From positions 1 through 32,245 of IMG/VR virus record IMGVR_UViG_3300028548_005718: a stretch of DNA of 32,245 bases; one strand, given 5' to 3'. The notes under the pieces are model-generated. The model was not told the DNA's origin. It saw only the letters and a list, made by a program, of their open reading frames with translations, and searched no databases. The translations under genes and the position numbers were made by a program. The stretch's first letter is position 1, and each line of letters starts with the position of its first letter. Of the stretch, positions 21,055 through 25,529 are shown piece by piece. This stretch comes from a virus.

Positions 21055-21409
21055 AATCTTCAAGCTTTTGTTTTAGGTTTTGAACAATCCCAGCCAAACA
21101 CGGGGCGCAATTGCTAGGCTTTTGATTGCTTGAGTTTACTCGGTTATAAATTGCAAAAATCATGTCTCGCTGTTCGAATGAATCAAGCTTGGTGTTGTTG
21201 TATGTTTTAAAAAAATCAACCAGGAAATTGTATTCGTCTTTTTTTAGCATACCCTTTGCCGGAAACCATTCATTGAGGGTCTCCTGTCTTTTGTCACAGT
21301 TGCAAGGCTTTTTTGTTAAATGCGAAACCTTGTCGACTAATGTTTTGATCCCGGTCGCTTTGGTGAACTCTGCAACTTTATCACCGAGACCCTTTATTTT
21401 TTTGCTCAT
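21044..21409 (-). CDS. Conserved Cys-rich phage protein (121 aa)
   Basis: 121 aa. Signature: GLGDKVAEFTKATGIKTLVD, then CNCDKRQETLNEWFP (C-x-C-D-x-R), then NCAPCLAGIVQNLKQ. The GLGD ... TGIK ... CxCDxR ... LNxxFP pattern is a small family I know from Bacteroidetes phages. Four cysteines in two pairs suggest a metal site. It overlaps the sigma-like gene (29 nt) and ParB-like gene (11 nt). Function unknown; context is the early-to-late boundary. Confidence 0.68.
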   Translation of the reverse strand: MSKKIKGLGDKVAEFTKATGIKTLVDKVSHLTKKPCNCDKRQETLNEWFPAKGMLKKDEYNFLVDFFKTYNNTKLDSFEQRDMIFAIYNRVNSSNQKPSNCAPCLAGIVQNLKQKLEDYAG

Positions 21410-21959
21410 AGTATTTATCTTTAAATTTTCTGTTAATCTTCACTTTGCACCTCTTTACTGTTCTGTATATGGTCGACAGAGAAAGTTTTGTTTTTTCCGA
21501 CATCAGACCCTTATGTGATTTGAAATCATATCTGTACAGGTTGAAAAGGTTTTTATCAAACCAGTAAAAAGTATCGACATATTTATCCATGTCTTGTTGA
21601 ATGGTCTTGTCAAAGTCATCGTCTTTGGATTCATTGACTATGTATTCAAGTTGACTATTAGACAACTTTTCGAGTTTTACAACCTTATTTTCTCGCCTTA
21701 TCATATCGACAAACATATTTTTCACGACTTTATATATACTTAACGAATGACCATCCCAATATCGGTCTAGAAATTTTTTGACTTCGGTTGGATTTTCTTC
21801 AATTTTATCGATCTCATTTTGAATTTTGATGTACAGATCGTGAGTTATATCCTCGTGATACATTCCTTTGTGATTGTACCTAGATTCTATATTTAAAATG
21901 GTTTCCTTTATTTGATCGTAATTGCTCCAAAGGATTTTGAGGGCTTCTTTTTTAGTCAT
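21381..21959 (-). CDS. Sigma-factor-like transcription regulator
   Basis: 192 aa with an ECF sigma plan. The region 2-like part has YHEDITHDLYIKI (34-46), IYKVVKNMFVDMIRRENK (75-92) as in 'LYRIARNLAIDYLRR', then a linker. The region 4-like HTH near 154-180 is SLSTIYRTVKRCKVKINRKF. It would guide RNA polymerase to phage promoters. It is the last regulator before the late genes and is joined to NinG upstream by an ATGA overlap. The duplicated 26-bp late element is its candidate target (inference). Confidence 0.7.
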   Translation of the reverse strand: MTKKEALKILWSNYDQIKETILNIESRYNHKGMYHEDITHDLYIKIQNEIDKIEENPTEVKKFLDRYWDGHSLSIYKVVKNMFVDMIRRENKVVKLEKLSNSQLEYIVNESKDDDFDKTIQQDMDKYVDTFYWFDKNLFNLYRYDFKSHKGLMSEKTKLSLSTIYRTVKRCKVKINRKFKDKYYEQKNKGSR

Positions 21960-23702: not shown

Positions 23703-23815
23703 TCTGCATTCTCTTTTAAATATTCAATTCTTAAATCAAAAACGGTTTCACAGTCTTCAAATTCACATATAAAATTATCTGGATGTTGAAACCCTCCGCA
23801 GTTCTCGCAAGTCAT
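23678..23815 (-). CDS. Small Cys-rich protein (45 aa)
   Basis: ATG at 23815 overlaps the stop of the upstream gene (ATGA), stop TAA at 23678-23680. MTCENCGGFQHPDN then FICEFEDCETVFDLR: two Cys pairs (CxxC and C-x4-C) as in a small zinc ribbon. It is coupled on both sides by overlaps. Not recognised otherwise. Confidence 0.55.
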   Translation of the reverse strand: MTCENCGGFQHPDNFICEFEDCETVFDLRIEYLKENAEWPFIAIK

Positions 23816-24318
23816 CCTCTTTGCTCACTGGTCCGCTCTCCAATGTATGTGTTGGACTTCAGCTCTGCGTGTTTGTCTGCGCTGTGTTTCATTGCTGTTG
23901 TCATTCTAGTCTCGTCGTATTCTCTAAAGGCAGTTAGTAGTTTTGCGAGGTCCCAGCTCCCGTACATTTTCCCGTATTTTCCTTTAATAATGTCCTTGAA
24001 AATCACAATCAGATCGCTGACGTTTAAAGATTTGTGATCCTCCATGATGAAAGTGGCGGCTAATTGGATCTGGTCCTCGCTCATGTTGTCCTTTACGCTT
24101 ATTGATCTGTTAACCTCCATCAACCATTTGATTAAAATAGCGTGAATCTTGACCGGTGAAAAGTCCTTTGCCATGCGTCCGATACTTGGGAGCCCTTTAA
24201 TATTTAAAGCATCCTGGACCGTTGAGATGTTTGGGTTTCTTAATGAAATTCTGGGCTCCGATATTGCAACCGTGTTTGTTTTTTTTGAAACCTCATGAGT
24301 TTTTAAATATATTTTCAT
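23812..24318 (-). CDS. Replication accessory protein (DUF6633-like)
   Basis: 168 aa from ATG at 24318, four nt after the replisome organizer stop and with a GAAGG element upstream. An ATG at 24396 in frame would add 26 residues but overlap the upstream gene by 74 nt. Helical: IHAILIKWLMEVNRSIS, FIMEDHKSLNVSDLIVIFKD, IIKGKYGKMYGSWDLAKLLT. The KGKYGKxYGS motif with a following helix recalls a Bacteroidetes phage family (DUF6633-like) paired with DnaD-like organizers; perhaps a helicase-loading partner. Confidence 0.6.
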   Translation of the reverse strand: MKIYLKTHEVSKKTNTVAISEPRISLRNPNISTVQDALNIKGLPSIGRMAKDFSPVKIHAILIKWLMEVNRSISVKDNMSEDQIQLAATFIMEDHKSLNVSDLIVIFKDIIKGKYGKMYGSWDLAKLLTAFREYDETRMTTAMKHSADKHAELKSNTYIGERTSEQRG

Positions 24319-24322
24319 TTGC

Positions 24323-25012
24323 TCAGAGGCCTTCGGTGTTTGCGAGTATCCTTTCAAGGTTCGAGTAGTCTGGTTGATTGTTTTGTTGTCTTCCATTAGA
24401 GTTGTGTTTTATGAGTTCATCTTCCCAGGCTTTATTATTTAAAAATGTTTGAGGGTTTTTTCTGTATGCCTTATCTGGTGTGGATTCAATGTAAGCAGGC
24501 AGATAGTTGAGTATTTCTTCTTTTACTTTTTGAGGTAGCTTATCAAATTTTGGTTTGATCAAAGTCTTGTTTCCTGTTTTCTTATCGTACAAATCCCAAA
24601 AATCTTCAAAGCTTGGATATATTTCAACTTCAGTTTTAGTTATAGTTATAGTTTCAGTTTCAGTTTCAGTTTCCATATGTTGATCATATGTTTTAGATAT
24701 GTTTAAGACAGGTGTTTCATTATTTGTTTTTTTCTTCCTGTTGCTTCTTCTTGACTCACTATATTTTTTACGTCTGTTTACTTCTGACTCTAATCTCTCA
24801 TTGAAATAAAGACCGTTTTCATCTTGAGTAAATAGATCGAAGATGTCTTTATCATATGTTAAACATATCTTTAACATATGTTCTTTCGTTAATCTTCCCT
24901 TTTGATGGTGAAAGCATAGAAGCCGAATAAATTTTCCGACTTGGTTATCATTTAGAAAATAAGTTCCAGTCAGAAAATCAGAACTATAAAAAAGGAATGC
25001 AGGATCTTTCAT
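24323..25012 (-). CDS. Replisome organizer / DnaD-like replication protein
   Basis: 229 aa. The N-terminal winged-helix part (DPAFLFYSSDFLTGTYFLND then GKFIRLLCFHHQKGRL) is the DUF1376-like domain of phage replication initiators. Residues about 83-95 are basic (RRKKYSESRRSNRKKK). A low-complexity ETETETETITITKT tract follows. The C-terminal part (PSFEDFWDLYDKKTGNK ... RKNPQTFLNNKAWEDELI) is a DnaD-associated type. The gene itself carries two iteron arrays and an AT-rich hexamer array (24632-24706 and 24853-24885), so it likely encodes the protein that opens its own origin, as lambda O does. Confidence 0.7.
   Translation of the reverse strand: MKDPAFLFYSSDFLTGTYFLNDNQVGKFIRLLCFHHQKGRLTKEHMLKICLTYDKDIFDLFTQDENGLYFNERLESEVNRRKKYSESRRSNRKKKTNNETPVLNISKTYDQHMETETETETITITKTEVEIYPSFEDFWDLYDKKTGNKTLIKPKFDKLPQKVKEEILNYLPAYIESTPDKAYRKNPQTFLNNKAWEDELIKHNSNGRQQNNQPDYSNLERILANTEGL
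24632..24673. repeat. Seven AGTTNN hexamers, possible unwinding element
   Basis: Plus strand: AGTTTT, AGTTAT, AGTTAT, then four AGTTTC in perfect tandem (42 bp), ending exactly where the first iteron array begins (24674). AT-rich direct repeats beside iterons are a common origin layout. In protein they encode the ETETETET-ITIT-KT tract. Confidence 0.6.
24674..24706. repeat. Iteron array 1 (three 11-bp repeats)
   Basis: CATATGTTGAT, CATATGTTTTA and GATATGTTTAA follow each other with 11-bp spacing (24674, 24685, 24696). Eleven is not a multiple of three, so codon use does not explain it. Likely initiator binding sites. Confidence 0.6.
24853..24885. repeat. Iteron array 2 (three 11-bp repeats)
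   Basis: CATATGTTAAA, CATATCTTTAA and CATATGTTCTT at 24853, 24864 and 24875, again with exact 11-bp spacing. The same 8-bp core CATATGTT is absent elsewhere as far as I could find. Includes the palindrome AACATATGTT at 24873-24882. Confidence 0.6.
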
Positions 25013-25094: not shown

Positions 25095-25529
25095 TTATTT
25101 TTGGATTAGTGGGTTTTTATATAAAAGATTAAAAACATAATTAACTTGTTCTTCGTCTGCCTTAAATAGATCTTGATCCATGATTCTTTTTTTGATATTA
25201 TATTTCTGCTTACTCGTAACAAAACCCTTCACATTGTCGAGGTCACAGCTCACATTTTTAAAGTCTTCTTGGTATGCTTTATCGTAGATCATAAACTCTA
25301 AAAATCTTTTATGTGTGTTTATTAAAGTTGCATGATGTAAATCCATATAAATAGACAACTGATAAAAAGAATAATTATAATTTTCATTAACATACCCTAG
25401 AAAAAATTGTCTCGCAGTTACGTAATCTTTAAACCTGGGTTTGTCAAATATTTTAATATTATATTTTTTATTTAAAGCTCTTTTGATTGGACCTAATATT
25501 TCCGAAATTTCTTTTTGTATTTTAGTCAT
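25095..25529 (-). CDS. DnaA domain IV-like DNA-binding protein
   Basis: 144 aa without any AAA+ domain. Residues about 37-80 follow the DnaA domain IV signature: VTARQFFLGYVNENYNYSFY (compare AR-x-x-x-Y-L) and LHHATLINTHKRF (compare H-T-T-V-x-x-A). This is the part of DnaA that reads DnaA boxes. An orphan copy next to an iteron-bearing organizer gene suggests a phage origin-binding protein or a decoy for host DnaA. The N-terminal helix (KEISEILGPIKRALNKKY) may dimerise. Not verified by search. Confidence 0.65.
   Translation of the reverse strand: MTKIQKEISEILGPIKRALNKKYNIKIFDKPRFKDYVTARQFFLGYVNENYNYSFYQLSIYMDLHHATLINTHKRFLEFMIYDKAYQEDFKNVSCDLDNVKGFVTSKQKYNIKKRIMDQDLFKADEEQVNYVFNLLYKNPLIQK

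Follow-up and report, generated by a model that had tools for sequence, protein, structure and literature searches.

A probable iteron-type replication origin inside the initiator gene of a family of phages

Introduction

Replication origins that lie inside genes are known from a few cultured phages. In lambda and the Stx phages, the iterons bound by the initiator sit in the middle of the initiator gene O with an A+T-rich tract adjoining them (PMC7466680), and binding of lambda O opens about 40 bp of A+T-rich DNA (PMC5043065, a paper that also covers the helical phasing of iterons). SPP1 harbors direct repeats and a DUE inside its initiator gene 38 and a second origin about 13 kb away; this oriL/oriR system comprises loader and DnaB-type helicase genes (gp38/gp39/gp40) (PMC6316719). 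The winged-helix initiators TrfA (RK2) and RepE (F) bind phased direct repeats and hold a single strand of the repeats within the unwinding element, the RK2 iterons being located in a separate origin region (PMC4081077).

The window analysed here is a 32,245-nt IMG/VR virus record, and the family loci compared with it are designated by L-numbers. Judging from its sequence, the window most likely contains an iteron origin inside an initiator gene (Table 1) and, by analogy, this origin would most likely work like lambda ori and SPP1 oriL. As in lambda ori, the iterons are in the gene and an A+T-rich tract adjoins them. However, lambda has four 19-bp iterons and the Stx phages six, whereas the window has 11-bp iterons, grouped in two arrays whose starts are about 180 bp from each other, and a zero-gap 6-bp tract; as iteron length and array number differ from those of lambda ori, the window origin is not classed with the lambda family. 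The likeness to SPP1 is one of arrangement: one contig of the family (L078/L105) recalls oriL/oriR, its two copies, one inside the gene and one distant, lying 18.7 kb from each other, whereas the window has one copy only. In comparison with RK2, whose strand repeats are 13-mers, those of the window are 6-mers. From the profiles matched by relatives and the predicted fold, the DUF1376/Lin1244-like phage replication proteins appear to share the same N-terminal domain family; the literature consulted, in which few subscription papers were covered, contains neither a described origin for these proteins nor an experiment on, or account of, the present origin family.

Table 1. Features of the putative origin and its surroundings, in window coordinates
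Feature	Coordinates	Strand	Basis or description
Initiator (replisome organizer) gene, 229 aa	24323..25012	-	ORF; PHROG/Pfam profile matches
N-terminal winged-helix-like domain, residues 1-93	24734..25012	-	AlphaFold2; weak winged-helix matches
Basic tail segment YSESRRSNRKKK, residues 84-95, SRxxN motif	24728..24763	-	Motif comparison across the family
C-terminal domain, residues 131-202	24407..24622	-	Variable in the family; helicase/loader contact probable
Iteron array A	24853..24880	.	CATATG N5 CATATC N5 CATATG; cores at 24853/24864/24875
Iteron array B	24674..24701	.	CATATG N5 CATATG N5 GATATG; cores at 24674/24685/24696
Seven phased hexamers	24632..24673	-	Proposed site of unwinding or strand capture; abuts array B without a gap
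Downstream DUF6633-like gene	23812..24396	-	PF20338 1.1e-5, just under cut-off; phrog_35728 4.4e-15
Upstream gene, putative DnaA domain IV relative	25095..25529	-	BLASTP 1e-12 to the same-place gene of L410

Architecture of the Locus

The preliminary description reported two arrays of three repeats at 11-bp spacing and, abutting one of them (array B), seven AGTTNN hexamers; both observations hold, and the arrays contain the sole such pairs of the window. Among the six cores, four read CATATG exactly and the other two deviate by one end base. The 32-kb window has four 11-bp-spaced [CG]ATAT[GC] pairs, all in the two arrays of three, and scanning its whole length for 11-bp pairs found no second array elsewhere; a triple arose in 0 of 3000 gene-length Markov simulations and a pair in 2 of 3000, and simulations of the whole window produced none. 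Array A comes first on the coding strand, followed by array B and then the hexamer tract: array A overlaps the codons of residues 45-54, within the winged-helix domain, array B falls in linker codons, and the two also constitute an imperfect inverted repeat (37 nt, 81%). The hexamers, read as AGTTTT, AGTTAT, AGTTAT and four AGTTTC, are GAAACT (four times), ATAACT (twice) and AAAACT on the coding strand; they compose an A+T-rich tract, adjoining the iterons without a gap, that is the top 6-bp repeat of the window (33/36 matches; runner-up 22). When stability is compared across the window, the tract is not its least stable stretch; its fixed position and 6-bp phase are better evidence than its stability. 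A GC-skew check over the window shows no inflection and is uninformative, as nearly all genes lie on one strand.

Such repeats in coding DNA raise the question as to whether they are a by-product of a low-complexity linker and codon choice, since the linker has a repetitive sequence (ETETETITITKT) and the codons of the arrays (HMLKIC..YD, KTYDQHME) show partial conservation at the protein level. In 3000 synonymous-codon shuffles of the window gene, 2813 contain no triple, 183 contain one and 4 contain two or more; with a triple in 187 of 3000, the amino acids carry part of the pattern, the test on this gene is only moderately significant and a family-level test is stronger. In the family, synonymous shuffles and the use of three codon phases argue against a by-product. 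This explanation, already refuted by the non-coding copies described below, retains practically no probability.

Selection on the Repeats

The loci of relatives were picked by initiator residues 1-37 alone, a region without array overlap, and CATATG density and spacing were counted for a dereplicated set of 46 genes. The density is 4.71/kb within the gene compared to 0.13/kb for the flanks, a 36-fold difference; pairs at 11 bp number 58, compared to 7.8 +/- 2.7 in synonymous shuffles, pairs 12 bp apart occur 15 times, and the iterons occupy all three codon phases. Autocorrelation rises above that of synonymous shuffles at 11 bp (z 16.9), 22 bp (z 11.5) and 33 bp (z 4.5) and, owing to the hexamers, at multiples of 6. 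The check proposed in the preliminary description, whether the repeats are kept as DNA while codons vary, thus has a positive answer in these 46 genes: the repeats are selected at the DNA level, beyond the protein. From the core proposed there, CATATGTT, CATATG is retained and the trailing TT is dropped, as the bases past CATATG vary across the family. As for how the arrays arose, the variable spacers between CATATG cores rule out simple tandem duplication.

Array and tract are joined at a fixed place. The 6-bp A-rich tract begins right after the last CATATG in 75 of 76 linker-array genes, its units in relatives being mostly GAAAAT, ATAAAT, GAAACT and ATAACT, and tract-like sequence is found in 0.5% of control 36-mers; the junction occurs at a single place in 19 of 21 junction-bearing records. 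The array-to-array distance among relatives is about 137-168 bp. In IMG/VR, 92 of 120 CATATGN5CATATGN5CATATG arrays lie inside genes with the N-terminal domain of the initiator.

The arrays also survive outside coding DNA. The initiators of L021 and L119 are about 119 aa long, ending past the DNA-binding part, and eight [CG]ATAT[GC] iterons at 11-bp spacing follow 3' of the stop codon, in non-coding DNA, and an ATAAAT/ATAACA tract adjoins them with no gap; comparable arrays occur downstream of the gene in L069, L086 and L094. In L050/L019 and in the L128 contig, the initiator gene has array A but neither array B nor the tract; an array with its tract is located in non-coding DNA elsewhere in the contig (6.6 kb off in L050). 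L105 and L078 belong to a single contig of 31.4 kb, in which one junction, at 4.5 kb, lies inside the gene and another, at 23.2 kb on the opposite strand, is non-coding. These non-coding copies are decisive evidence for a function at the DNA level over a protein by-product. An array-plus-tract without a surrounding initiator gene is also seen in L036 (near 296) and L078 (near 3787), in both just 5' of one gene family (M.NPIELLAQVKKLVF...).

A function at the DNA level could also be that of operators for transcription of the replication operon, bound by the initiator or another regulator, the tract being incidental. Transcription regulators fit phased palindromic repeats as well, and Rhodobacteraceae genomes hold similar CATATGN5 arrays at many loci with the tract absent; scanning a genome collection with the array pattern returned mostly unrelated arrays (Rhodobacteraceae loci, 11-bp minisatellites), the hexamer tract being present in just 7 of 119. 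In the phage family, however, the arrays are in the gene or past its stop codon and not at a promoter, the tract has a fixed position relative to the array, and one non-coding copy is 18.7 kb off, all of which makes operators quite improbable. The Rhodobacteraceae genomes (L138, L147, L136, L145, L177 and others, from Rhodovulum, Marinosulfonomonas, Actibacterium and relatives) carry many CATATGN5CATATGN5CATATG arrays with neither tract nor initiator, possibly the sites of a regulator.

The Initiator and Its Neighbours

Based on its profile matches, the initiator gene is a member of the phage replication-initiation families, namely PHROG_270 replication initiation protein (1.3e-11, covering residues 93-220), phrog_9327 primosomal protein (2.2e-6) and phrog_9474. 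Among 75 relatives, 38 match the DUF1376 Pfam model at E<=0.01 and 7 the phrog_678 'replication initiation O-like' profile; neither is matched by the window member. The AlphaFold2 model, with a pLDDT of about 83-96 over residues 11-90, predicts an N-terminal domain made of helices 22-38, 43-50 and 55-58, then a wing and finally a long helix (72-93), followed by a disordered linker and a helical C-terminal domain. The PDB folds nearest to this N-domain are weakly similar winged helices, among them ORC2, MarR and, with the highest score (Z 5.3), an IclR regulator; searching the PDB by sequence and by fold with the initiator returned nothing significant. The nearest predicted viral structures (BFVD) include several DUF1376 proteins and replisome organizer proteins. 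The C-terminus differs among relatives, which have unrelated domains, such as Phg_2220_C, Rep_Org_C and DUF7833, at this end; it probably provides the contact with a helicase or loader.

In the window, the start of the downstream gene overlaps the 3' end of the initiator gene, and its DUF6633-like product is a candidate helicase loader; the gene after the initiator matches DnaB_C (DnaB-type helicase) in 20 of 63 relatives and DnaC- or G39P-type loaders in others. This context, the initiator family and the conservation support the earlier proposal of an iteron-type origin within a replisome organizer gene. The upstream gene appears to be a divergent relative of DnaA domain IV, the DnaA-box-binding part: its counterpart in L410 matches PF08299 at 1.3e-4, with equivalents in L339 (2.2e-15) and L272 (2.7e-14), and the link runs only via these relatives, a direct Pfam DnaA_C profile search of the window having given no match. 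Elsewhere in the window, whose genes are mostly on the minus strand, an integrase is present, and 21381-21959 (-) encodes a predicted sigma-70/ECF-like factor (sigma70-ECF 1.6e-8, under cut-off).

The upstream neighbour bears on the identity of the binder, as the locus could be an origin whose arrays are recognised by a protein other than the initiator, for example this DnaA-domain-IV-like product or a host factor. While such a gene immediately precedes the initiator gene, both in the window and in some relatives, it is recognised in just 7 of 164 family loci (by regex only, many loci being short), and it is the tail motif of the initiator itself that tracks the arrays; another binder is thus unlikely.

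At the end of the long helix, [ST]RxxN is present in every one of the 76 genes whose linker carries a CATATG array; of the 25 genes lacking this array, 23 have an RW-type segment without SRxxN and one, L050, has SRxxN. L050 is the sole discordant gene, and its CATATG array is elsewhere in the contig. The tail of L308 is CESRRKSA and its iterons are altered, (G)CGTATG. Over residues 1-73, the genes of L007 and L008 show synonymous changes only, yet their tails and linker arrays differ; L008 (2980-3705) is an apparent natural hybrid, whose N-domain and array A belong to the CATATG type and whose tail and linker repeats (GGTAATAC) belong to another. Such correspondence suggests that the initiator tail may take part in iteron recognition. 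The tree contains just 3-6 independent switches and, with so few, the near-perfect association of tail motif and iteron type cannot be significant after kinship correction.

Homologous genes without the repeats, which the preliminary description had named as counting against an origin, do occur, yet they have other iterons in place or the array elsewhere. The iterons at matching positions in CATATG-less relatives are mostly about 11 bp and include TACGAACGTAT, GCGATTCCA and ATCGTAT types: TACGAACGTAT repeats occupy both array positions in L343/L339/L338/L341/L340/L344, and the linker, ahead of an A-rich tract, contains GCGATTCC-like repeats in L355/L359/L350/L351, ATCGTAT-like repeats in L370/L395 and TGCGAACGCAT in L376. 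This change of iteron sequence at constant position fits co-evolving initiator-iteron pairs. Two further groups were noticed. L010-L012 share only the C-terminal domain, and their linker AAAGCA repeats at 11-12 bp suggest the same design with another N-domain; in the GC-rich phage contigs L016, L055 and L135, a gene devoid of a DUF1376-like domain (GAYEKHMDTICKPYGF) contains four CATATG spaced by 11 bp, possibly by convergence.

Discussion

The anatomy of the locus, selection at the DNA level, the fixed junction, non-coding survival of the arrays and the gene context are shown by the sequences. The whole reading that we consider very likely is a theta-type phage origin inside the gene of its own initiator, bound at the iterons and opened at the tract. 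The N-terminal winged-helix domain of the initiator and its basic tail would bind the 11-bp-phased CATATG iterons cooperatively, on one helix face; binding would strain the adjoining A+T-rich hexamer tract, one strand of which would open and be held, perhaps in 6-nt steps, and a DnaB-type helicase would be brought in by the variable C-terminal domain together with the product of the neighbouring gene. We infer that the initiator does the binding, that the tract is melted and that replication begins at this site; by analogy with described systems, loading of the initiator on the phased iterons and opening of the phased tract are the most likely events.

A modular specificity code can be envisaged in which tail (SRxxN vs RW) and iterons would change jointly and swap between phages, making incompatible replicons, the array-plus-tract cassette would shift as a unit into and out of coding DNA, and the tract would act as a ladder for strand capture in 6-nt steps, with the last iteron as the fixed point from which it is read. 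We hold this proposal tentatively, giving its three parts, taken together, somewhat less than an even chance.

The fixed array-tract junction, the exchangeable iteron types and the SRxxN motif that tracks CATATG iterons are new. A single architecture of the putative in-gene origin is shared by many uncultured phages and by some assemblies of bacteria (Clostridia, Oscillospiraceae, Bacilli, Saccharibacteria). The sequence rule (CATATG N5)n immediately followed by RWAANT hexamers may serve to locate likely origins in metagenomic phages, and the family offers a natural series of initiator-iteron pairs, including L007/L008 with their near-identical N-domains, for the study of initiator specificity.
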